Positions 30,101 through 63,112 of a stretch of 64,000 nucleotides of DNA are shown here, piece after piece. Position 1 is the first letter of the stretch. Each line of letters starts with the position of its first letter. The DNA lies in assembly GCA_947172415.1 (NCBI GenBank), contig OX359190.1:8804001-8868000 (forward strand). The letters run 5' to 3'. A program made the translations under genes and the position numbers. Below the pieces are notes generated by a model, which saw nothing but the letters and a program-made list of their open reading frames with translations, was not told the DNA's origin and searched no databases. This DNA comes from Chondrosia reniformis (taxonomy: Eukaryota; Porifera; Demospongiae; Chondrillida; Chondrillidae).

Positions 30101-33100
30101 CTGATTATTTGTTGTAGTTAGTTTAAGAGGGAGAACATGGGAGGGGCATTGCTGTGGCAGTTGTAGCTCAGTGGCAGAGCAACTGGTGGTCATAACCAGC
30201 TGTCCTGGGTTTGATTCCCAGCAATTGCTTCTTTCGTGTTTTTCCCTCTTTATGATGTTTCATTGATTATTACTTGTGGTTTGATTATCACATCGATTAT
30301 TCATACGTATGTACATAGATAGGCAGATGGCATTCTAAAGATTACATCTTTCGCAGCAGGAGAACATATACAAGTTGGTACATAAAGGTATACTGGTATG
30401 TATATATACAGTATACACTTTGCTGACCAAGCATAAATCTTCCTGTGATTATCCATATTATAATATGTGTGTATGTACACATACACACATATGTATGTAA
30501 ATACATACATATGTACATACACTTAAACAGTATATACGTAGATTTACATATATGTACGTAGATACGTATATGTAGAAGATACACAGAACAGGTACATACT
30601 ATATATACATCTATGTGTCCTAACTAGATAGGAGAGAAACAGTAGTCCCCACTTTAGCACATACATACAAATGTATACAGTGAGGGAATTAATTACAGTT
30701 AGACTGTGAAAAGACTATGATGAAATAGTACTGGCCATGGTTGGCATATTTATCTTTCAGTAACTGTTCACTTCTTCATACATACGTATAAGTATGAACT
30801 GTAACAAAATGTTTTGAAAATCATACATATGCATATGTAATAGGACAATATTTAATTTACGTGGTCAATTACATAATTACATAAAGATTTCAGTAATTCA
30901 TATATTTCTTGTCCTTACATGATGCTTCGATTTCTTTTCCTAAATTTTCTACATTTTGCCTTTAGAGTTCTTTCTGAAACTGACTTGTTGATGATGTAAA
31001 TCAGGTAAACAGTGGGAGCTATCAGGAATGTTGTACTAATTGTGATGATGATTACGGGGACACACAAGCTCCAATACATACCACGGAGGTGTGACAATAG
31101 ATGGCTGAAAAGGAATACATGTACAATATTGTAATATTTACATTAATGGTTCTCTATATGTATGCACGTACAAACATATGAAAAAAGATAGCGAGTACTT
31201 GTTGCAATCAATGTGGTTGATAATTATTTTGAACAAAACTAATTATACACAGGGCTTTAAAAGACCAGGAAGATTCCCTGGGTCACCAATGAAGGTTGAA
31301 ATTCTAAGAAACAGCTGTCTGGTCCAGTGGAGAAGAAGAAGGAGGAGAAGACTCTTATATCCTCATCCAAAGCTTTTACTAGTTCCATATAGGCCTTTTA
31401 CTGTAGAATAGCTGTAGCATGTTGAAAATGGTGTATTTATACTTTCTAAGCATAATACAAGTTTGTTCAAATAAGCAAGTTTCAGATAACTGAGGCTTAA
31501 TTATATAGCATTATGCATAGAAGCCTCTAAATAATGTTGCTATAGAAGTATCCCTTGTTATGGGACATTACATATGTATGATATGTACAGTGAAAGCAAT
31601 TTTGCTCACAATATATAAACGTTTTGTGAACATTCACACTTACTTGTCAGAGGTATCCTGAACATATTCTCCGCCAAATATACTTCCTGTCACCACGGTA
31701 ACAAAAGCTGGAATACCTGTATAAATAAGCCAATGGAACATAATAGATTTTCACTAAATGTACATTATCATATGAAACACATTACATGAATAGAAATATT
31801 ATTCATTATTGAGAGCATTCACTCACAACTAAAACAGGCTCTACACATTTTTAAACCTCTAAAATAAGTTTCAAATAACAAGCAGTCACTTTCGTTAGAT
31901 CCCAGATAATCAGAGCTATATAGACTTTATATCATTAGGTCATACCAAAGCTAACAAGCAGTCCAACAAGTATCAGATATCTCTGTGGTAACTTGGTGAA
32001 GTTTGTGTTTTTTGCCACAACCCAAAACAACACTGCTACCATGCCAACTAGCAGAAAGCAGGCAGAAAGGAGCAGAAAATGGATGAATGCACTCATCGTT
32101 ATCCTTGTAGCCTAAAAGGAAATGATAATGTAAGATGAATCATATCTTTGTTCATTTTACAAAATGCTTCATAAGTGCTCAAGTACTTCACACATAACTA
32201 TTGTATTGCTCTATTGTATCATTGCTTTCACTCAAAAAGAACATATAAATACTTGTGTATATATTTATGTGGATACAGACAAATGTAAATATTCTACTCC
32301 ATTAAAAATTTACACTTTAAGTAAAACTCAAGTGTCTAAGGTAATGCAAAGCATGCTATGTAAATTAAAGTCTTAGGACTATGTAGCTAGAGATCAAAGG
32401 ATGCTTGAGTAGAGGTACACTGATATAGGATGCGATTTCAAGAAACAGTTTCTGCCCCCTATGTAGGGAGAGGAAAGACTGAACTCCACTCCTCCACTAC
32501 ACAGTTGTATTTACAGTGTACTGGAATATTTACCTAAAGTCATAGTTTATCAGAGAAGGGCCTTAGACAATTCATAGACTACTAACATACATGCTACTTT
32601 TGACGCCACTTTTAGATTATTCACTTACTGCACTTCTACTTGGTGTCATAATGGCCGTAAATAAGAATACAAAGAAAATACACACCATAAAACAGAAACG
32701 AAACAGGAGGAGAACTTCTCTTAGAAGACTTTGGCTACAAGATGGAAGAGAGCACATAATATGTATGTCATCTCTATATATAGTAACAGAGATCAATCTG
32801 GGGGTCATACACTGACACTCACCACAAGCACAGATTCATTAATATAGTCAGTAGGATGAGGAGGCAGGCTATTGTGCAACCAAGGCACACCAGTACATTG
32901 ACGGCTATAACTACCTCAGAACCAATACTTTCCTATTAATAAAACAGATAATAACTGAATCAGTAACATATTTCCTCTAAATGTATCATGAAGTCTTACT
33001 TCAGTCTGATCTGATGTTGGAGTAGGAAGGACAGTTGAAACTACGCTAGGTGTGCTATTAACAGTAACAGCAGTTGATGTTTCTTCTAAGCTAGTTGTTA

Positions 33101-47100: not shown

Positions 47101-48704
47101 TAAAATCAGATGTCAAATGATGGTAGTCAAAGCTTTAAGATCAGATTTACACCTTAGAATCTTCTATTTTTCAAAATATGTTATAAAGAATCTCAACAAA
47201 CCTCTCCTTATACTGTCTATTTCTCCTCGCTTGTTCCAGTTCTGTGGCAGATCTCTCTGTGTGGAGACAGCTAAGGAGCCAAAGAGACGTCAGAGCACTA
47301 CTCAGAACACGCTGTGGGAGACAACAGAGACCTCTGAAGTTATTATGAGAAAGGATAGCACAGCCAAGGCAGAGGCTGCAGCTAATGGTGAGATCTACGT
47401 ACGTACATATATAATAAACACCAGGCCCTAGCTGCTTGTGTATACATATACATAATTACACCCTAGAAGAGAGCCCATCCTTTGATTCCTTGAGCATCTA
47501 AAATGCAGTTTGGTTATATACGTATGTATCTTTGGTCAAACTTTTTGACCCCAAGGGTATTCATTAACAACCCAACCAAAGATTTAAACCCAATTTCTGT
47601 TTTTAATGTTGAAGGAGTCGGAAGATGTTTCATCTAAAAGATAAGTTTGACACGGTTAGAATGAATCCTCATTTTATTATAATTATTTAAACACATTTGG
47701 ATTTTTCAATGCTTTTTCTTCTTTGTACTACTTACACAGGCTCATCAGAAGAGGATAAGAGACGTGTATCGGTTGGCAGTGCTAGTGTGACCTCCACAAA
47801 GAGACCAATCTACATTACATCATCACGAGATAACATTCTAGCAGAGTCCAGTATTCAGGAGATAGCTGACTCGGGCGGAGATGTATGTTGAGTTGTTAAT
47901 TGCAAAGCTACTCTTAACATTTTAGGACTGTAGGCCCCAGGGAGGAATGGTGTGATCTTGTAGGCTCCAGGGAGGAATGGTGTGATCCTGTAGGCCCCAG
48001 GGAGGAATGGTGTGATCCTGTAGGCCCCAGGGAGGAATGGTGTGATCTTGTAGGCTCCAGGGAGGAATGGTGTGATCCTGTAGGCCCCAGGGAGGAATGG
48101 TGTGATCCTATAGGCCTCAGGGAGGAATGGTGTGATCCTGTAGGCCCCAGGGAGGAATGGTGTGATCCAATAGGCCCCAGGGAGGAATGGTATGATCCAA
48201 TAGGCCCCAGGGAGGAATGGTGTGGTCCTATAGGCCCCAGGGAGGAATGGTGTGATCCAATAGGCCCCAGGGAGGAATGGTATGATCCAATAGGCCCCAG
48301 GGAGGAATGGTGTGGTCCTATAGGCCCCAGGGAGGAATGGTGTGATCCTGTAGGCCCCAGGGAGGAATGGTATGATCCTGTAGGCCCCAGGGAGGAATGG
48401 TATGATCCTGTAGGCCCCAGGGAGGAATGGTGTGATCTCTTCTTACCATTTGACCTATATTCTCCTGTAGAACATTGAGTTACAAGCAGTGTCCGTTTCT
48501 GGTAACAATTCTCTCAAAAGACCAAACACATCCAAAACTGGATCCCTCCCAAGACTTACTAACCTGGATTGGGCATTTGGTGAAAACTTTACAAACTTTC
48601 GTACCCAAGGCAGTGATGAAATGAATCCAGCAGACGATGAGGCTAGTATTACCTCAAACAAGGACGACGATGCAAAGTCTACTGGCACTGAAACCAGTGT
48701 TTAA
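38190..48704 (+). CDS. Adhesion GPCR: Ser/Thr stalk, HormR, GAIN/GPS, 7TM; 18 exons, 965 aa
   Basis: Exons: 38190-38280, 38802-39236, 40045-40199, 41031-41194, 41741-41795, 41980-42175, 42654-42958, 43664-43834, 44185-44276, 44454-44752, 45121-45187, 45749-45818, 46010-46116, 46516-46642, 46832-46870, 47240-47387, 47740-47882, 48471-48704. Phase closes throughout. Exon 1 is a signal peptide (MAMVLSLLFFVVGLSTSS). Exon 2 is a mucin-like stalk ending in a Ser-Pro run. Exon 3 is a hormone-receptor domain (GLSWKPTDIGEIAVVNC ... MCLEEGKWSTP ... C). Exons 4-8 form the GAIN domain ending in the GPS (CKAHHLSLFAVEI); known GPS sites cleave before the third residue of H-L-S/T. TM3 reads CKISNTILQYFIIATFGWLF, typical of family B2, and TM4 GWSAPVV is rebuilt across an intron. 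The tail of about 160 residues is Ser/Thr-rich. Ligand and G protein are unknown. Confidence 0.9.
38578..38752 (-). repeat. Dispersed family 1 copy
   Basis: It carries CTGTCTGACCCAGTGGAGAA, CCAAAGCTCTCTTCAGG and TAGCATGTAGGAAAAT, with a short internal duplication of TTTAGTTCCCC. It ends about 50 nt before exon 2 of the adhesion GPCR. Confidence 0.75.
39180..39222 (+). repeat. CTCTCC hexanucleotide repeat inside a coding exon
   Basis: About seven CTCTCC units encode alternating Ser-Pro at the end of the stalk exon of the adhesion GPCR. A six-base unit cannot shift the frame, so length variation would only alter stalk length. Confidence 0.8.
39237..41030. other. Introns 2 and 3 of the adhesion GPCR
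   Basis: These two introns flank the HormR exon (40045-40199). They are AT-rich with many TACGTA and ACGTAC palindromes. No further exon or recognisable transposon is seen. Confidence 0.4.
43131..43165 (+). mobile_element. Penelope/hammerhead-like repeat core in intron 7
   Basis: The string CTGAAGA, a GGTC-TATT-GACC hairpin, then GAAAC, flanked by TCAG and CTGA, follows the order of a hammerhead ribozyme core as found in Penelope-like elements. One extra A before the hairpin departs from the consensus. The surrounding 43080-43220 is probably a degenerate repeat. Confidence 0.35.
43228..43335. repeat. Foldback element, copy 1
   Basis: Arms CATCATTAAACTCTGGATA and TATCCAGAATTTAATGATG form a hairpin of about 19 bp, followed by a shared tail (TTTAAGATTGGCTTCTTA ... 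TTCCCCTATTTTT). Related copies lie at 44068-44185 and 47100-47175. Confidence 0.6.
43500..43650 (-). repeat. Dispersed family 1 copy
   Basis: It carries GGCCCAGTGGAGAAGAAGAG, CATCCAACTCTCTCTCTAGG and TTCCCTATAGCCC. It ends just before the GPS exon at 43664. Confidence 0.7.
43872..44065 (+). repeat. 16-bp minisatellite, about 12 units
   Basis: The unit CTCTCTACCGCTACAC repeats with few changes inside the intron before the TM1 exon of the adhesion GPCR. It is strongly pyrimidine-rich on the sense strand and ends about 120 nt before the acceptor at 44184. Confidence 0.9.
44068..44185. repeat. Foldback element, copy 2, abutting the TM1 exon
   Basis: Arms CATCATTATTCAACTCTGGAT and ATCCAGAGTCAAATGATGATG form a hairpin, with the same tail as copy 1 (TTTAAGATCAGCTTTTGAGC, TTCCCCTATTTTTC). 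The tail runs directly into the acceptor of exon 9. Confidence 0.6.
45256..45433 (+). repeat. Second copy of the 86-260 repeat
   Basis: About 175 bp match 86-260 with small indels, inside an intron of the adhesion GPCR. It carries no protein frame of note, so it is a non-autonomous dispersed repeat. Confidence 0.75.
46140..46262. repeat. Foldback element with inverted arms
   Basis: Arms around TTGAGCAACAGCAT and ATGTTGCTGTTGCTCAA flank a core TGATGAAGACC ... TTGAAAC. A decayed relative of the core and right arm lies near 3370-3455. Confidence 0.55.
47100..47175. repeat. Foldback-family fragment, copy 3
   Basis: It shares TCAAATGATG, TTTAAGATCAGATT and CTATTTTTCAAA with the copies at 43228 and 44068, and lies in the intron just before the exon at 47240. 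Confidence 0.5.
47929..48437 (+). repeat. 30-bp minisatellite, 17 units
   Basis: The unit (core CCCCAGGGAGGAATGGTGTG) repeats with an exact 30-bp period and only scattered substitutions. It fills nearly all of the last intron of the adhesion GPCR and stops about 34 nt before the final exon. Confidence 0.95.
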
Positions 48705-48985: not shown

Positions 48986-51900
48986 ATGGTGATTTGCATT
49001 TGTACATATATACTACTGATATTCTCTACTAATCGAATGAAGCCCTTCCACTCCCCATTATAGCCTAAAGTTAAAAAGGCGAAGCAGAAACACGTTGTCA
49101 AAGTGGTCCACCCGCAATCGAGAAGAGCGGCTCAGATGACAAGGAAGGTGCAAAGAAAGGAACGAATTGACATGTAAGAGCTTGTAACGTGCGTTATTAT
49201 AGTCGATACTTCTCCCTATAGAAGCCAGTTCTTAATACATTGAATATGTGTATATATATAGTACTAGCAGTGTCCAGTTTAATTAAAAATTATCTTTATT
49301 TGCTAATTCTTTTGAAGATCATAATTATATTCATTACCACTTACTGCATCATAATTCCTTTTAGACAAAAAACTGAACACAAGAAACTAGTTTCGCAGAA
49401 AGGTGCAGTGAGTGTTGTATAGTCATTAGTGCACATTTGAGTGCAGTGAGTGTTGTATAGTCATTAGTGCACATTTGAGTGCGGTGAGTGTTGTACAGTC
49501 ATTAGTGCACATTTGAGTGCAGTGAGTGTTGTAGTCATTAGTGCACATTTGAGTGCAGTGAGTGTTGTAGTCATTAGTGCACATTTGAGTGCAGTGAGTG
49601 TTGTAGTCATTAATGCACATTTGAGTGCAGTGAGTGTTGTATAGTCATTAGTGCACATTTGAGTGCAGTGAGTGTTGTATAGTCATTAGTGCACATTTGA
49701 GTGCGGTGAGTGTTGTATAGTCATTAGTGCACATTTGAGTGCGGTGAGTGTTGTATAGTCATTAGTGCACATTTGAGTGCAGTGAGTGTTGTACAATCAT
49801 TAGTGCACATTTGAGTGCAGTGAGTGTTGTATAGTCATTAGTGCACATTTGAGTGCAGTGAGTGTTGTATAGTCATTAGTGCACATTTGAGTGCAGTGAG
49901 TGTTGTACAATCATTAGTGCACATTTGAGTGCAGTGAGTGTTGTATAGTCAATAGAGCACATTTGAGTGCGGTGAGTGTTGTATAGTCATTAGTGCACAT
50001 TTGAGTGCAGTGAGTGTTGTATAGTCATTAGTGCACATTTGAGTGTGGTAGGATGTACAGGAGATTATAGAGCTCAGAAGCCTACCCCAGTGGCTAATGG
50101 GATAGTCTTGTGAGCCAGACCACTATCCTGCCTCCATACTTAAGTGAATATGGAGGCAGGATAGCGGTCTGGCTCACGAGACTACTAATGTGTGGCATCA
50201 CTCCACCTTTTTGTAGCAGTGTAATTAATAGTCATCATTATATAAGTCATCAATTGTAATGGAGGCATGAGTAACTATATCAAGACAGATATATAACATT
50301 ATATTGGACTTTAAAATAATGAGTAAATTCTAGCTTATATACTCTCCAGATCTGATAGTGTCCTGTATCCCGGATTCACTGCAAACATATACATTTTACA
50401 TACATGCTATAAGAGGAGATGTGAATGGAGCATTGCTGTTGAGATTGTAGCTCAGTGGTAGAGAGCACTGGTGGTCAAAGCCATCTGTCCTGGGTTTGAT
50501 TCCCAATAACTGCTTCTTTGCTTCATCTACCTTGACTGTGATTCCTTGCTGTTTGTTATTACTGTGATTACATAGAGAATTATACTGTAAACATACATCT
50601 GCCATTCATGTAATTGTTGGGTAATTTATACTGTAAGCATGCCTATAGTCTATATAAAATAGTGAATGTCCAAGTTTGACTCTTTATTCTTTACAGTTGC
50701 TAAGTTACTGTGGTTTAGAGAGAGGTTAGATGAAAGTAAAACATGTCTTACTTTATCAGAAGTGACAGAACTAATTGAAGAGTAAGACCCTGTGAGATAA
50801 ATATACTAGATATACATATTGACATTCATACACCATTATGAATATACTACACCCTTATGAATATAATTACTTCACCATTATGAATATAATTACTACACCC
50901 TTATGAATATTATGCACACTTACAGTATACAGTACATATACTTGCAGAAAGGTCTCAGTAACTGATTCATTTCATAAACAGAAGAGATATCTGGTTATTA
51001 CATACTTAAACCTGTTAATTGCACAATTTCCCTCAGGTCTGTAGTTATGCATTTAAAAGGAGTCCACTGTATATAGTTCATTTCAATAGTATTAACAACA
51101 CTTCTCATATTTTGCATCCTAACTTACTAGTACATGTACACTGGAAATGGGCTGGGTCTTGATTATCAGCTTGTACTGATGAAGAGAATCACCACTAATT
51201 AAGAATGTACACTGATTATTTGTTGTAGTTAGTTTAAGAGGGAGAACATGGGAGAGGCATTGCTGTGGCAGTTGTAGCTCAGTGGCAGAGCAACTGGTGG
51301 TCATAACCAGCTGTCCTGGGTTCGATTCCCAGCAATTGCTTCTTTCGTGTTTTTCCCTCTTTATGATGTTTCATTGATTATTACTTGTGGTTTGATTATC
51401 ACATCGATTATTCATGCACCCTTCAAACTCTAATAGGTGGCTACCTATGAATATTGATTATTTCCTTTACTGGCCCCTATTTCTTCACTTCTCCATTTTG
51501 TTCAGACATCTTCATAGATTTGATGATGAGCTGAAGACCATTGATATTGTAAACAACCTACCCCATCGCCATGGTAACCAGCAAAGTAGCAGAAAGGATG
51601 TCATTATAGCAGCCATTGAGAAGGAGAGAGAAATGTTTGAAACCTCTGGATTTGGTAACTTCATTTGTATAGTGTTAACTGATATAGAACCGTTGTACCT
51701 AGTTAGCATTGGTTATAAGTGATTAATTGATAGCTGATACAAATGATGATAAAATACTTTCACATAAACAGCTGAATTGTACTCTTTATCTTCAAACCTG
51801 TAGAAGGTAGTTAACTATGTATTTTTACATGCACATACTTTTAGAAGCTCCAGATCTGTTGGAACCAAAGAAGTATGAGACTTTCAAGTTAGTATTCAAG

Positions 51901-52533: not shown

Positions 52534-55500
52534 ATGCAGTCCAGTACTTCAGAAACAGCTGTACAAGTTGGAGGACAATCTAAAGACAGTGAAGCTCTAA
52601 ATTTATTGCATCAGTTTACTAGTGAAATGGAGGGTAAACTGACAAGACAGGATAATGTGATTAGGTAGGTAGTTACTCAGTTTGATAAATAAGGGAGATA
52701 ATGGATTTACAAGATTTTAAGTTTTGTGTACTGTTACTATTATATAACTCCATCTACATATCATTTTAGTTTTATATATTAGGAGCTTTCAAATGACTAC
52801 CATGGATATATCAATCAATCAATCAATTAATCATGCAGTTTTGTAGATCCGCTCTTCTCCTCATGCAGTAGGAGGTCGATGTTATGTACAATAATAAAAA
52901 TACTTAAATTATATCAGTTACTATAGGAATATAGACTGTTCTGTATAATAATATATAGGCAAAAATCATTAAGTATTCTTTTCCTTGGCCGTCCTCTTGG
53001 TCTTCCTCAATCACTCTTCTCACCAACCTCTCCTGTAGCATTTCCTCAATCTTCTTCCTCCAGTCATTCTTCTTCCTATCTGCCACTTCCAGTACTGCTT
53101 CAACCCCCAGCCTTCTTCTATAATGTCTTCATGGATACAGTATATCATGAAATAATCTAATCTAAATTAGCTCTGTATTTACAGACATTTGAAGTTATGG
53201 TTTAAGAAATCTATGCACCTATGTACATACGTATATATTACATGTACACCTTCAAACTCGTATATACATAGTCATTAGATTTTTAGTTTAATACATCAAT
53301 GGATATGTCTTGTATACATGTGCTCCTTTTGCTAGTGAAATGAAGGCTGGGGAAGTGGAGCAGAAAAAGAAGATAGAAGAGCTTTCAGCAGAAAATGCCG
53401 AACTGAAGAATGATAGGAAGATACAGAATAATGTTAATAGGTAAGGAATGATTGGATACATTTCAGAATGACTAGTGTGCCATTTATAATCATATTCACA
53501 TTATGAAGTTCCTTATGATGATAACATGTATATACATTGTGTATGCATATTTCAGTAACCTTAAACTTTCAGTAGTTTAACTCATATACAAGAGACTTTA
53601 ATGTAGATACCTATATAAGTATTATAATATGCCCTACACTCAATACACATACAATATAACTAGTACACTGATTGGTATTGTTTTTGTAATGCTTTGTATT
53701 TAATGGTTCATATGGGTACATACATGTACTATATATTTCTTTTCATATATACGTACCTTCCTATTTACAGTAATTATTAATCAATGGATGCAAACCTTCA
53801 CATACTCCTAATATTGATAATATACGTATGTTGTGTATACTTAGTTGTACAACATACTGAGCTAAGTTAATGCATAAGTAGATAACCAGTGTATGTGTTA
53901 TCATATTCATTTCTTCTTTTTTATCATGCTGTTAGGAGGTTGAATTGTCTATTAGAGTGAGTTTATTATAAAGAGATGAAGCATGCAGTATTATGTACAG
54001 TATGTAGTGGAGTCTTCCAATGAAGTGCTGGACACCTTCATTCCGGCTCACACTTTATTTTCCATCACCATGATATCTATTCTATTGATCCCTATGAAGT
54101 ACGTATATACAGTAATATGTTAACCGTACTTGAGTGAACATTGGCATGTTCTTGCTCTGTGTGAATGAATACTATAGTGTATTACATGTAGACAGAAGGT
54201 TTATATTGTATTCCTCCTTTTCCTCTTATTCTTACTTGTGTAGGGATGTAGAGAATAGAAACAGGTAAGTTATTAAGTTATGTTTTGATATCCATTTGGT
54301 TTTTCATGAAATTACCTGTTATAGTTTAACTCTACTATTATAGTAAATGCATAGTGTTTTAGTCGTACTTGAAGTTACACTTGATAAAATAGTGAAGCAT
54401 GCAGTATTATGTACAGTAGGTAGTGGAGTCGTCCAATGAAGTGCTGGACACCTTCATTCCGGCTCACACTTTATTTTCCATCACCATGATATCTATTCTA
54501 TTGATCCCTATGAAGTACGTATATACAGTAATATGTTAACCGTACTTGAGTGAACATTGGCATGTTCTTGCTCTGTGTGAATGAATACTATAGTGTATTA
54601 CATGTAGACAGAAGGTTTATATTGTATTTCTCCTTTTCCTCTTATTCTTACTTGTGTAGGGATGTAGAGAGGAGAAACCTGTAAGTTTGGCATTAAATTA
54701 TCCATTTGGTTTGTCATGTCACTTGTTAACTATTACAGTAAATACGTAGTATTTACGTAAGTCGTACTTGAAGTTACACTTGATGAACTGGTGTAACATG
54801 CAGTAAGATAGTATATAGTAGTTACGTATTACGTACTAGTATATTAGTATTCACATATATATATATATATATATAATGTCATATTCCATACTTACGTATA
54901 GAGATGAGGTCTACAATAGTATGTATATGTACATACTTAGCCATAAGTCCATTGGAGTACTGTAATTCTAGTCCACACTCCATTATATTAATCATGTTGA
55001 TATTCTGTTGAACCTTATGATTGGATACCTTTCAGAATTTTTAATTCCATGAGAATAATTGTTAGTTTAACTCTAATAGTTCTATTAAAGTCATTTTCTA
55101 TAAATATATGTACATATTCATTTATATACGTAGGTCTTATACTTGAGGTTGTAATATATACCAAAATGACTCCTCCTTCTCACAGTCATTCCATGAATCC
55201 TACAAGCAAGGGTGTTGTATGATTCAATGCATATATAGCTAATGCTTCACTGTGTAACATCCCTTTCTTGTTTCTGTGCTTTTTGTGCCATCCCTACATC
55301 TTCACTATTTTTGTAGAAATTTTTTATTGTTCTCTAGTATAATATGCCCTACACTCAATACACATACAATATAGCTAGTACACTGATTGGTATTGTTTTT
55401 GTAATGCTTTGTATTTAATGGTTCATATAGGTACATACATGTACTATATATTCCTTTTCATATATACGTATCTTCCTATTTACAGTGATTATTAATCAAT

Positions 55501-58500
55501 GGATGCAAACCTTCATGTACTCCTAATACTAATAATATACATACGTTGTGTATACTTAGTTGTACAACATACTGAGCTAAGTTAATGCATAAGTAGATAT
55601 CCAGTGTATGTGTTATCATATTTATTTCTTCTTTTTTATCATGCTGTTAGGAGCTTGATTTGTCAATTAGAGTGAGTTTATTATAAAGAGATGAAACATA
55701 CAGTATTATGTACAGTAGGTAGTAGAGTCTTCCAATGAAGTGCTGGACACCTTCATTCCAGCTCACACTTTATTTTCCATCACCATGATATCTATTCTAT
55801 TGATCCCTATGAAGTACGTATATACAGTAATATGTTAACCGTACTTCTGTGAACATTGGCATGTTCTTGCTCTGTGTGAATGAATACTAAAGAGTATTAC
55901 ATGTAGACGGAAGGTTTATATTGTATTTCTCCTTTTCCTCATATTCTTACTTGTGTAGGGATGCAGAGAATAGAAACAGGTAAGTTATTAAAGTATGTTT
56001 TGATATCCATTTTCATGAGATTACCTGTTATGTTTTGATATCCATTTGGTTTTTCATGAAATTACCTGTTATAGTTTAACTCTACTATTATAGTAAATGC
56101 ATAGTGTTTTAGTCGTACTTGAAGTTACACTTGATAAAATAGTGAAGCATGCAGTATTATGTACAGTAGGTAGTGGAGTCGTCCAATGAAGTGCTGGACA
56201 CCTTCATTCCGGCTCACACTTTATTTTCCATCACCATGATATCTATTCTATTGATCCCTATGAAGTACGTATATACAGTAATATGTTAACCGTACTTGAG
56301 TGAACATTGGCATGTTCTTGCTCTGTGTGAATGAATACTAAAGAGTATTACATGTAGACGGAAGGTTTATATTGTATTTCTCCTTTTCCTCTTATTCTTA
56401 CTTGTGTAGTGAGACAGAGAAGAGAAACAGGTAAGTTATTAAAGTATGTTTTGATATCCATTTTCATGAGATTACCTGTTATAGTTTAACTCTACTATTA
56501 TAGTAAATGCATAGTGTTTAAGTTGTACTTGAAATTACACTTGATAAAGTGGTGTAACATGCAGTATTATGTAGTATAGTAGTTACTACATAGTATATTA
56601 GTATTCACATATATATATATAATGTCATATTCCATACGTACGTATAGAGATGAGGTCTACAATAGGTATATACTGTATATATACATACTTAGCCATAAGT
56701 CCATTGGAGTACTGTAATTCTAGTCCACACTCCATTATATTAATCATGTCGATATTCTGTTGAACCTTATGATTGGATACCTTTTATACATTTATATTCA
56801 TTAGTTTTACATTCTAGTAATTCAATGGATATAAAGGTATGTGTAATATCTTTGGAGATAGTTACTGTAGTACCCAATCACAGTGTACCACCTCAATAAC
56901 CAAGATACACGTGGTTATACAATAGACACTACGTACGGACCTATGGATCTATTAAGAGTAACTATATAAGTACTACTTTTCTTTAGAGGGGTCACAGTAC
57001 AGTATATAGTATAGAATTTAATAAAGAGGTGAAGCATCCAATAATATGTAGAATGTATAGCCAATAAAGTAGTTGTACGTAAGGGGGTAACTCTAGTCCA
57101 TACTTCATTTTTTATAGTGATCACATTGATATTCTATTTAACTTTATAATTGGATACCTTTCAGAATGAACCTCTTGTTTTAATTCCATGAGAATAATTG
57201 TTAGTTTAACTCTAATAGTTCTATTAAAGTCATTTTCTATAAATATACATATTCATTTATATACGTAGGTCTTATACTTGAGGTTGTAATATATACCAAA
57301 ATGACTCCTCCTTCTCACAGTCATTCCATGAATCCTACAAGCAAGGGTGTTGTATGATTCAATGCATATAAAGCTAATGCTTCACTGTGTAACATCCCTT
57401 TCTTGTTTCTGTGCTTTTTGTGCCATCCCTACATCTTCACTATTTTTGTAGAAATTTTTTATTGTTCTCTAGTATAATATGCCCTACACTCAATACACAT
57501 ACAATGTAGCTAGTACACTGATTGGTATTGTTTTTGTAATGCTTTGTATTTAATGGTTCATATAGGTACATACATGTACTATATATTCCTTTTCATATAT
57601 ACATACCTTCATATTTACAGTGATTATTAATCAATGGATGCAAACCTTCATGTACTCCTAATATTGATAATATACATATGTTGTGTATACTTATATAGTT
57701 GTACAACATACTGAGCGCTAAGTTAATACATAAGTAGATATTCAGTGTATATGTTATCATATTCATTTCTTCTTTTTTTACCATGCTGTTAGGAGCTTGG
57801 AGCATCAAATAGTGTGAGTTTATTATAAAGAGATGAAGCATGTAGTATTATGTATGTACGTAGGTAGTGGAGTCTTCCAATGAAGTGCTGGACACCTTCA
57901 TTCCGGCTCACACTATATTTTTCTATCACCATGATATCTATTCTATTGATTCCTATGAAGTATACATATATACAGTAATATGTTAACTGTACTTGAGTGA
58001 ACATTGGCATGTTTCTGCTCTGTGTGAATGAATATACTATAGTGTATTACATGTAGCAATGCACAGAGGAGAAACCAGTTAGTTTGGCATTAAATTATGT
58101 TTTGATATCCATTTTGGTTTTTCATGAGATTACCTGTTAGTTTAACTATTACAGTAAATACATAGTGTTTAAGTTGTACTTGAAGTTACACTTGATAAAA
58201 TGATGAAGCATGCAGCATTATGTACAGTAGGTAGTGGAGTCGTCCAATGAAGTACTGGACAACTTCATTCCGGTTCACACTTTATTTTCCATCACCATGA
58301 TATCTATTCTATTGATCCCTATGAAGTATATACAGTAATATGTTAACTATACTTGAGTGAACATTGGCATGTTCTTGCATGCTCTGTGTGAATGAATACT
58401 GAAGAGTATTACTTGTAGACACAAGGTTTATATTGTATTTCTCCTTTTCCTCTTATTCTTACTTGTGTAGGGATGTAGAGATTAGAAACCAGTAAGTTAG

Positions 58501-61500
58501 CCATTAACTTAGTTTTGATATACATCTGGGTTTTCATGAGATTGCCAGTTAGTTTAACTCTACAATTACAGTAAATACATAGTGTTTAAGTCGTACTTGA
58601 AGTTTCACTTGATAAAATGGTGAAGCATGCAGTATTACATATGTAGGTAGTGGAGTCGTCCAATGAAGTGCTGGACACCTCAATCCCAACTCACACGTTA
58701 TTTTTCTATCACCATGATATCTATTCTATTGATGCACCTATGTACAGTACGTATATATTACATACATACGTAGAAGAGACTTTAATGTAGATACCTATAT
58801 AAGTATTATAATATGCCCTACACTCAATACACATACAATGTAGCTAGTACACTGATTGGTATTGTTTTTGTAATGCTTTGTATTTAATGGTTCATATGTA
58901 CTATATGTATATTCCTTTTCATATATACATACGTACCTTCCTATTTACAGTAATTATTAATCAATGGATGCAAGCCTTCATGTACTCCTAATATTGATAA
59001 TATACATATGTTGTGTATACTTAGTTGTACAACATACTGAGCTACAGTATAAGTTAATGCATAAGTAGATATCCAATATATGTGTTATCATATTCATTTC
59101 TTCTTTTTTATCATGCTGTTAGTTGCTTGAAGCGTCAGTTAGAGTGAGTTTATTATAAAGAGATGAAGCATACAGTATTATGTACAGTAGGTAGTAGAGT
59201 CGTCCAATGAAGTACTGGACACCTTCATTCCGGCTCACACTTTATTTTCCATCACCATGATATCTATTCTATTGATCCCTATGAAGTATATACAGTAATA
59301 TGTTAACTGTACTTGAGTGAACATTGGCATGTTCTTGCATGCTCTGTGTGAATGAATACTGAAGAGTATTACTTGTAGACACAAGGTTTATATTGTATTT
59401 CTCCTTTTCCTCTTATTCTTACTTGTGTAGGGTTGCAGACCAGTAAGTTAGCCATTAACTTAGTTTTGATATACATCTGGGTTTTCATGAGATTGCCAGT
59501 TAGTTTAACTCTACAATTACAGTAAATACATAGTGTTTAAGTCGTACTTGAAGTTTCACTTGATAAAATGGTGAAGCATGCAGTATTACATATGTAGGTA
59601 GTGGAGTCGTCCAATGAAGTGCTGGACACCTCAATCCCAACTCACACGTTATTTTTCTATCACCATGATATCTATTCTATTGATGCACCTATGTACGTAT
59701 ATATTACATACATACGTAGAAGAGACTTTAATGTAGATACCTATATAAGTATTATAATATGCCCTACACTCAATACACATACAATGTAGCTAGTACACTG
59801 ATTGGTATTGTTTTTGTAATGCTTTGTATTTAATGGTTCATATGTACTATATGTATATTCCTTTTCATATATACATACGTACCTTCCTATTTACAGTAAT
59901 TATTAATCAATGGATGCAAGCCTTCATGTATTCCTAATATTGATAATATACATATGTTGTGTATACTTAGTTGTACAACATACTGAGCTACAGTATAAGT
60001 TAATGCATAAGTAGATATCCAATATATGTGTTATCATATTCATTTCTTCTTTTTTATCATGCTGTTAGTCGCTTGAAGCGTCAGTTAGAGTGAGTTTATT
60101 ATAAAGAGATGAAGCATACAGTATTATGTACAGTAGGTAGTAGAGTCGTCCAATGAAGTACTGGACAACTTCATTCCGGCTCACACTTTATTTTCCATCA
60201 CCATGATATCTATTCTATTAATCCCTATGAAGTATATACAGTAATATGTTAACTATACTTGAGTGAACATTGGCATGTTCTTGCATGCTCTGTGTGAATG
60301 AATACTGAAGAGTATTACTTGTAGACACAAGGTTTATATTGTATTTCTCCTTTTCCTCTTATTCTTACTTGTGTAGGGATGTAAAGATTAGAAACCAGTG
60401 AGTTAGCCATTAACTTAATTTTGATATACATCTGGGTTTTCATGAGATTGCCAGTTAGTTTAACTCTACAATTACAGTAAATACATAGTGTTTAAGTTGT
60501 ACTTGAAGTTTCACTTGATAAAATGGTGAAGCATGCAGTATTACATATGTAGGTAGTGGAGTCGTCCAATGAAGTGCTGGACACCTCAATCCCAACTCAC
60601 ACGTTATTTTTCTATCACCATGATATCTATTCTATTGATGCACCTATGTACGTATATATTACATACATACGTAGAAGAGACTTTAATGTAGATACCTATA
60701 TAAGTATTATAATATGCCCTACACTCAATACACATACAATGTAGCTAGTACACTGATTGGTATTGTTTTTGTAATGCTTTGTATTTAATGGTTCATATGT
60801 ACTATATGTATATTCCTTTTCATATATACATACGTACCTTCCTATTTACAGTAATTATTAATCAATGGATGCAAACCTTCATGTACTCCTAATATTGATA
60901 ATATACATATGTTGTGTATACTTAGTTGTACAACATACTGAGCTAAGTTAATGAATATCCAGTGTATGTGTTATCATATTCATTTCTTCTTTTTCACCTT
61001 GCTGTTAGTCACTTGAAGTGTCAATTAGAGTTCGTTTATTATAAAGAGATTAAGCATACAGTATTACGTATGTAGAGAGTGGAGTCGTCCAATGAAGTAC
61101 TGGACAACTTCATTCTGGTTCACACTTTATTTTCTATCACCACACTACTATTCTATTGATCCCTATGAAGTACTGTATATATAGTAACATGTTAACTGTG
61201 CTTCTGTGAACATTGGCATGTTCCTGCTCTGTGTGAATGAATATATACTGAAGAGTATTACATGTAGACAGAAGGTTTATATTGTATTTCTCCTTTTCCT
61301 CTTATTCTACTTGTGTAGGGATGTAAAGAGGAGAAACAGGTAAATTAGGCATTAATTTATGTTTTGATATCCATCTGGTGTTTCATGAGAATACCTGTTA
61401 TAGTTTAACTCTACAATTACAGTAAATAAATAGTGTTTTAGTCGTACTTGAAGTTACACTTGATAAAGTGGTGTAACATGCAGTACACACTTCAATCATG

Positions 61501-63112
61501 TTGATATTCTGTTGAACCTTATGATTAGATACCTTTTATACCTTTATATTAATTAGTTTTACATTCTAATAATTCAATGGATATATATAGGTAGGTATGT
61601 GTAATATCTTTATATATAGTTACTGTAGTGCCAAATCACAGTGTACCACCTCAATAACCAAGATACACGCAGTTTTACAAAGGAACAAAGCTTCTAATAA
61701 TAATCATTAATAAATACTACGTACGGACCTATGGGTCTATTAAGAGTAACTATATAAGTACTACTTTTCTTTAGAGGGGTCACAGTACAGTATATAGTAT
61801 GTGAATATACATACGTACATATGTACATAATTTATGTAATAAAGAGGTGAAGCATCCAATAGTACATATAATGCATAGCCAATATAGTAGTCGTACATAC
61901 ATAAGTTCACTGGGGGGATAACTCTAGTCCATATGTGGTATCATTTCAATTTTCTTACCATGCTGTAAGGATCAAGCTTGATAAATTAAAATAATCATAT
62001 TATATTTTATGTTTACAGAGATATGCAAGAACAATCATTTATGCTTAAGGAGGAGATTTTATCACTCAAGAAGGTACCAGAAATATAATGAATACAAAAT
62101 ATCATAATACGTATATAATGTCAGCTGTTTCTGTTATTGTTATGGAGGATGTGAAAGAACAAAGTGACTTGATAAAGGAAAATCAAGAAAAGCTGGCTTT
62201 TGAACATGAACAACGAGAAGTACGATATGACCTGTAATATATAAGGTTGATGTAGCTATGTTATAGTAGCAAAAAGAAGTCAACAATGATATCTGATTCA
62301 ACGCTTTTTAGAATATTAAGTGATATGATGTCATTGCCTTCTGTTCTACGTGCATGATTTCCTATAAATAGGAGTTTGAAAATAGGTGCAAGAATTTGCA
62401 AGCTCAGCTGGACCAACTTCAGAAGGAGAACTCAAATTTTAAAGATTTAACCAGTAGATATGGCAAAGCTTTATTGCAAGCAAGTGAACAACCTGGAGCT
62501 GATGACAAGGAGCAAGTTGTAGAGGGAGATGGGGAACACTGTGCATATGTGAGAGATGGCCCCCTGTTATTAGATGGTCTGGATGTTTCATGTAAGAGTT
62601 TTTTTAAAGTACATTTTTTGAGCAGTCATGCAAAACAACTCAATAATTAAATATCTACGTACTTCTAAACCATACATTCGTATGTCATTGTATATTAATC
62701 AACCCACAAGTAAACAAGTATCTTGTGAAATCCTGCATGTGCATACATAGAAGCATATATATTACTTCAACATGCACTCTGCTTATATATATGTTTTCTA
62801 CCATAATGGTGTACACATATTATGCCCATAGTGCCAAAGAATCTTGCTGACGTCACAGTAGAGAACCTGGTGGAACATATTCCTGCCATGACTTCAGAGT
62901 ATGAGAGGATTGGTTATAAGTTTGGTGTTGGGGACTGCATCAAATCTTTAAGAGGATATCAAGCTGTACCTCAGCAGAAGTGTCTGATGATGATTGAGAA
63001 GTGGATTGACAAGGGAGAAGATGTCACTTGGGAGAAATTGCTCACTGTGCTGCAGTCACTGGAAATGAGAGATGTGTTTCTAAAGATAAAGAAACAATTG
63101 ATCAACTATTAA
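52534..63112 (+). CDS. Coiled-coil protein with C-terminal death domain; 21 coding exons incl. 15 microexons, 389 aa
   Basis: Exons: 52534-52664, 53336-53440 (105 nt, five heptads), fifteen microexons between 53936 and 61339, then 62019-62073, 62148-62219, 62372-62591 and 62832-63112. All phases close, with TAA at 63110. The start ATG 52534 lies in an exon whose acceptor ends at 52527 next to an in-frame TAG, so a 5' UTR exon upstream is expected. Residues from about 45 to 245 are coiled coil (KIEELSAENAELKNDRK, then the microexon heptads, MLKEEILSLKK, LQAQLDQLQKENSNF). The last 94 residues form a death-domain-like six-helix fold: NLADVTVENLVEHIP, QQKCLMMIEKWIDKGEDVTW, EKLLTVLQSLEMRDVF. Death domains bind each other in apoptosis and innate-immune complexes, and the coiled coil would set oligomeric state or reach. 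AATAAA at 63187. The orthologue was not recognised. Confidence 0.85.
52840..53110 (-). mobile_element. Possible retroelement remnant in intron
   Basis: The minus strand has a purine-rich reading frame (ADRKKNDWRKKIEEMLQERL) unlike the intron around it, resembling the C-terminal tail of some retrotransposon ORFs. The assignment is weak; it could be a chance open frame in low-complexity sequence. Confidence 0.25.
53936..61339 (+). other. Array of 15 in-phase heptad microexons in tandem-duplicated introns
   Basis: Exons: A 53936-53956, B 54244-54264, B 54660-54680, A 55651-55671, B 55959-55979, B 56410-56430, A 57793-57813, B 58057-58077, B 58471-58491, A 59123-59143, b 59431-59442, A 60069-60089, B 60377-60397, A 61009-61029, B 61319-61339. 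Each begins and ends in phase 2. All are 21 nt except b (12 nt). Type A acceptors end TGCTGTTAG and donors are mostly GTGAGT. Type B acceptors mostly end CTTGTGTAG and donors are mostly GTAAG. Type A heptads read SLICQLE, CLKRQLE, RLKRQLE and HLKCQLE; type B read DVENRNR, DVERRNL, DVEIRNH and DVKRRNR. Leu/Leu (A) and Val or Ala/Asn (B) fall on core positions d and a with 4-3 spacing across exon borders. Flanking introns are copies of one another. Confidence 0.85.
58618..61020 (+). repeat. Three near-identical tandem blocks of about 955 bp
   Basis: The blocks beginning around 58618, 59571 and 60527 (TGGTGAAGCATGCAGTATTA, then ACATATGTAGGTAGTGG) match almost base for base. The second and third even preserve an identical spurious 62-codon reading frame (59601 and 60556). 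They are the youngest duplications in the array. Confidence 0.85.

Follow-up and report, generated by a model that had tools for sequence, protein, structure and literature searches.

How a gene can come to encode a coiled coil one heptad at a time, and how the number of its heptads can change, is the question raised by a site on chromosome 2 of the sponge Chondrosia reniformis (genome of 117,379,552 bases in 15 contigs). The stretch of DNA that we analysed as a whole, hereafter the window, covers 64 kb (C2:8804001-8868000). A sequence-only reading had described there a row of fourteen 21-nt exons and one 12-nt exon, all in phase 2, within a single gene.

The predicted gene and its fifteen microexons

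The gene is predicted to encode a coiled coil and a death domain, and the gene upstream of it is Tma16-like (93.6 bits). When exons 1 and 2, the 15 microexons and four downstream exons are joined, the predicted model is stop-free and encodes 389 aa. The exons outside the array are the following:

52534..52664, + strand: predicted exon 1, from the ATG to a phase 2 donor (sequence reading)
53336..53440, + strand: exon 2, 105 nt (5 x 21), phase 2-2
62019..62073, + strand: predicted exon after the array, phase 2 in
62148..62219, + strand: predicted exon of 72 nt (gene model)
62372..62591, + strand: predicted exon of 220 nt (gene model)
62832..63111, + strand: predicted last exon, with the death domain (Pfam PF00531, 27.1 bits)

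The death domain scored above the Pfam cut-off of 22.6 bits when the last exon was searched alone; Death was absent from the Pfam matches of the full-length 389-aa protein at E ≤ 1. When the death domain was used as query against PDB sequences, one match was returned (E 0.75), and the comparison of the 389-aa model with a 5.8-billion protein set, which says little about animals, gave 0/3952 candidates at E ≤ 1e-3. Elsewhere in the window we observed two minisatellites, at 47928-48437 (30-bp period, 17.0 copies, 94% matches) and at 49403-50045 (38-bp period, 17.1 copies, 95% matches), as well as two tRNA-SeC-like calls with a TCA anticodon (30156-30231 and 51267-51342) that are possibly tRNA-derived repeats and not genes.

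Between positions 53936 and 61339, all the microexons of the earlier description could be located, with AG/GT borders and phase 2 on both sides. They fall into two sequence types, A and B, and are listed below with their translations:

53936..53956, + strand: A1, 21 nt, RLNCLLE
54244..54264, + strand: B1, 21 nt, DVENRNR
54660..54680, + strand: B2, 21 nt, DVERRNL
55651..55671, + strand: A2, 21 nt, SLICQLE
55959..55979, + strand: B3, 21 nt, DAENRNS
56410..56430, + strand: B4, 21 nt, ETEKRNR
57793..57813, + strand: A3, 21 nt, SLEHQIV
58057..58077, + strand: B5, 21 nt, NAQRRNQ, donor gttagt, upstream flank without the stretch common to the other B copies
58471..58491, + strand: B6, 21 nt, DVEIRNH
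59123..59143, + strand: A4, 21 nt, CLKRQLE
59431..59442, + strand: B7, 12 nt, VADH, lacking 9 nt relative to the sister copies, heptad register shifted
60069..60089, + strand: A5, 21 nt, RLKRQLE
60377..60397, + strand: B8, 21 nt, DVKIRNH
61009..61029, + strand: A6, 21 nt, HLKCQLE, donor gttcgt
61319..61339, + strand: B9, 21 nt, DVKRRNR, donor gtaaat

When both strands of the 64 kb were scanned for a good acceptor, 21 nt and a good donor, 13 sites were found, of which 12 were array exons on the + strand (B5 and A6 being below the thresholds) and the thirteenth lay outside the array on the - strand. Among lengths from 9 to 60 nt within the array, 21 was the only one with more than two good acceptor-donor sites. 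The pattern CAG-21 nt-GTAAGT was counted 1162 times (612 + 550) against 1040 (571 + 469) in the reversed control, a small excess. A reverse-strand reading of 55140-55420 was dropped, having stops in all three frames.

Stops were found in 0/15 microexons in the used frame versus 5/15 and 11/15 in the other two frames; the open frame alone is weak evidence, as 5.7% of random-mutation simulations also stayed stop-free. Stops created by the joining of the exons, named by the sequence-only reading as a possible refutation, occurred at none of the 136 junctions that exon 2, the 15 microexons and exon 3 can form in their genomic order. Judged from the sequence, the array is a real feature beyond what chance would give, and we infer that its exons are included in the mRNA. 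An RNA-seq run, ERR10177766, is named in PMC12181767. An array-less product would also be possible because exon 2 joins the exon after the array (62019) in frame.

That cells vary the number of included 21-nt exons by alternative splicing, and so use the array as a ruler that sets the length of the coil in steps of about 1 nm, seems unlikely to us. The 136 junctions are indeed all open and phase-compatible and the donors vary (for instance those of A6, B5 and B9), but the acceptor regions are nearly identical among the copies, except for B5, and offer no obvious handle for the choice of exons.

The claim that the 21-nt exons preserve both the reading frame and the heptad register held for the 14 exons of this length. 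With the sixth full codon set as position a, position d was Leu in 6/6 A exons and Val, Ala or Thr in the B exons, whereas position a was Leu or Ile in the A exons and Asn in 8/8 of the 21-nt B exons. The 4-3 pattern, said to continue across each junction, did so in the 14 exons of 21 nt but was broken once, at the 12-nt exon B7, which adds 4 residues and around which the core spacing reads 3-4-4-3. The Asn at position a of the B exons could set the pairing register of the coil, as coiled-coil knowledge would suggest. If normally joined, the 15 microexons would add about 102 residues of coiled coil. A coiled coil rises by about 0.15 nm per residue, which corresponds to about 15 nm for the array. 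Each 21-nt phase 2-2 exon would supply a single heptad, always interrupted within the b codon, so that copies could be gained or lost without any change of frame or register.

Duplication of the array and divergence of its exons and introns

The exon order (A1 B1 B2 A2 B3 B4 A3 B5 B6 A4 B7 A5 B8 A6 B9) corresponds to nested tandem repeats with blocks ABB, ABB, ABB, AB, AB and AB. The tandem units at the end of this order and a further, probable copy are:

58471..61318, + strand: three units in tandem (960, 946 and 942 nt), each carrying a B and an A exon (alignment)
61932..61980, + strand: probable decayed sixteenth copy, of A type, with the upstream flank and a few bases from the start of the exon (nhmmer E 0.0023)

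The units are 99% and 92% similar: units 1 and 2 differed at only 4/913 intron columns, and unit 3 differed from these two at 47 and 49 of 895. The A1-B1 intron resembled the last 267 nt of the B1-B2 and B3-B4 introns (98.9 and 97.8%), as well as 280 nt of the B5-B6 intron (91.4%). Such A-type ends of B-to-B introns are expected if recombination between shared intron segments had removed an A exon. In the probable decayed copy, there is no GT 21 nt on. The suggestion that exon number changes by duplication at the gene level is well supported by these sequence comparisons, that is, by the nested repeats, the similarity of the units, the A-type segments in the B-to-B introns and the probable decayed copy. 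A search of the own genome with the 960-nt unit (best candidates scored) gave 15 matches at E ≤ 0.001, all at the array locus and none outside it. With the array protein as query, the same genome returned only exon 2 of the same gene, 7-residue exons being beyond the reach of such a search; further arrays may thus exist elsewhere in the genome.

Between the copies, the exons diverged more than the introns (Fisher tests, whose p-values are descriptive because the copies are related to one another). Variable columns amounted to 13/21 in the A exons versus 87/513 in their flanks (p 9e-6) and, for 7 of the 9 B copies, to 9/21 versus 60/315 (p 0.014), a weaker excess than in A. Mean differences were 0.270 between A exons, against 0.066 upstream and 0.080 downstream, and 0.209 between B exons, against 0.050 upstream and 0.127 downstream, so that the B exons were not far above their downstream flanks. 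Among 21-column intron windows, which overlap, 8/473 matched the diversity of the A exons (0/479 in a second run without A6) and 9/275 that of the B exons; B5 and B7 were left out of the B window and distance tests.

The excess was not uniform along the tandem units. Units 1 and 2 differed at 3/33 exon columns plus the loss of 9 nt, compared with the 4/913 of their introns (p 0.0012), in a hand alignment that we judged better for the 12-nt exon than the MAFFT alignment, which gave 5/33 exon differences (p 4e-6). Units 2 and 3, aligned by MAFFT, differed at 7/33 exon versus 49/895 intron columns (p 0.0025), and units 1 and 3 at 5/42 versus 47/895 (p 0.077).

The differences between exons were mostly amino-acid changes at surface positions. 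Core positions (a and d) were variable in 3/12 columns versus 21/30 for the other positions (p 0.01). The proportion of nonsynonymous differences (pN) was 0.27 in both types, to be compared with mean flank differences of 0.05-0.13, and the synonymous one (pS) reached 0.22 in A versus 0.11 in B (B7 left out). Two readings fit the higher divergence of the exons, either diversifying selection on the heptad surfaces or recombination that homogenises the introns while the exons withstand it. In A, the raised pS, above the intron rate, points to homogenisation of the introns as well as selection. Either reading presupposes that the exons matter.

These data also bear on the idea of an array without function, a mere tandem repeat whose exon-like sites are relics skipped by the spliceosome, which we consider quite improbable. 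One copy has probably decayed, another is shortened and the frame is kept when the whole array is skipped, as this idea would allow; yet passive repeats should vary evenly, whereas variation is higher in the 21-nt blocks than in their flanks and lower in the core codons, and AG and GT are present at 15/15 sites.

Insertion of near-identical, introner-like introns between heptads once contained in a single longer exon, or in a few of them, appears highly improbable. It would agree with introns more alike than exons and with B exon distances that correlate poorly with those of the flanks (r -0.10 for the upstream and 0.32 for the downstream flank). Against it, whole units of exon and intron were duplicated, the unit has no match elsewhere in the genome among the best candidates scored, the probable decayed copy retains its flank, and the distances between A exons correlate with those between their upstream flanks (r 0.62, p 0.04), the values for the downstream flanks being r 0.26 and p 0.21.

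We thus favour as the probable explanation, from the sequence evidence, that the fifteen sites are real exons, normally joined, whose number is altered when look-alike introns recombine. Unequal exchanges between such introns would add or remove exons, while selection would hold the core (Leu, or Val, Ala or Thr, at d; Leu or Ile at a in A and Asn in B) and let the surface diversify, as the pattern of variation suggests.

Paralogous death-domain genes

A search of the same genome with the death domain of the array gene gave at least 45 matches, the array gene included. The closest paralogue among the matches listed was L022/L036 on C13, whose death domain is 39% identical over residues 7-83 of 93. 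Like the array gene, it combines a death domain with phase 2-2 coiled-coil exons whose lengths are multiples of 21: the predicted upstream coiled-coil exons of L036 (C13:4561000-4568000) measure 147 and 84 nt, to be compared with the 105 nt of exon 2 of the array gene. It differs in that these exons carry several heptads each, and a microexon array was absent by a rough filter. Single predicted exons of L036 thus hold 7 and 4 heptads, an arrangement that speaks for the introner-like gain of introns discussed above.

The stretches upstream of 8 paralogous death domains (L036, L037, L038 and L040-L044), out of at least 44 other matches, were examined. The exon filter detected no microexon array in them, although it is a rough filter that missed A1, A2, A3, B5, B7 and A6 in the array gene itself. 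The phase 2-2 candidates that it retained outside the array were of 105, 147, 84 and 24 nt (the last in L044), three of the four being multiples of 21. A search with the coil peptides of L036 recovered L036 itself only (2 matches). The microexon array may therefore be the extreme of a family habit, as these few exons would suggest, and could stem from a gene family whose coiled-coil exons, judging from three of them, were already in phase 2-2 and multiples of 21.

In the same set of matches, we observed an SH2 domain match (32 bits; L038:5366-5596) upstream of a death-domain match on C1, and two death-domain matches on C13 (L023 and L025) with one and two internal TGA, respectively, that may be pseudogenes.

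Comparison with chicken BG genes and schistosome micro-exon genes

Although the sequence-only reading knew of no described system with such an array of single-heptad exons, chicken BG genes are such a system, the only one with this architecture that we found in the open-licence literature. The size polymorphism of B-G was reportedly ascribed, in the title of an article by Kaufman et al. from 1990, to variation in the length of the heptad region. The cytoplasmic tail of BG, which belongs to the butyrophilin family, is encoded by rows of 21-nt exons, with a few of 18 or 24 nt, each corresponding to a heptad; the actual heptad is spread over two exons via a split codon, and exon number differs among genes (PMC5938342, PMC4046983). 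The sequences compared there have 27-37 heptad exons, mostly of 21 nt. Variation in the tail lies mostly at five positions off the hydrophobic stripe, and the comparison of replacement with silent changes supports selection (PMC5938342).

The sponge gene resembles BG in its run of 21-nt single-heptad exons (14 of the 15), in the split codon and in the location of most variation outside the core. In contrast, BG proteins sit in the membrane and carry an Ig-V domain, whereas the sponge gene is a death-domain gene; the 5 Pfam matches that its predicted protein gave at E ≤ 1 included no Ig family, and hence no Ig-V domain of the BG/butyrophilin kind. The upstream exon supplies one base of the split codon in BG and two in the sponge gene, which thus departs from the BG family in this respect too, and the hydrophobic codons, counted from the split codon, are 4 and 7 in BG versus 3 and 7 in the sponge gene. 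From the domains and the phase, we infer that the sponge gene is not a member of the BG family but works like one, with an apparently independent origin.

The comparison also bears on the alternative splicing ruler. Most differences between transcripts of one BG gene are due to alternative splicing in the heptad exons, a point in favour of the ruler (PMC5938342); on the other side, the splicing events that we found described for BG are retained introns, mostly with stop codons, and not a counted choice of exons.

The micro-exon genes (MEGs) of Schistosoma offer a looser parallel. In the descriptions consulted, most of their coding sequence lies in very small symmetrical exons that permit alternative splicing, some of these genes showing dN/dS > 1 for the mature portion (PMC4350168), and they encode secreted proteins from exons of 3-81 bp (PMC10526429). 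They share very small symmetrical exons with the sponge gene; the same descriptions mention no exons with a fixed length of 21 nt and a heptad each.

Returning to the recombination of look-alike introns, we can only tentatively propose a system of heptad cassettes, in which such recombination adds, deletes and reorders single-heptad exons and selection diversifies their surfaces. The length and the face of the coil of a death-domain adaptor would then vary between individuals (and perhaps by splicing as well), as a recognition or pairing specificity in a sponge.

To our knowledge, such an array is new for a sponge and for a death-domain gene, the kind itself being already known from chicken BG. 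The apparently independent origin of a BG-like architecture, here in a death-domain gene of a sponge, suggests that symmetric exons of 21 nt are a reachable route to evolving the length of a coiled coil. As the exons exceed the introns in divergence, existing sequence data would allow tests of selection on single heptads.
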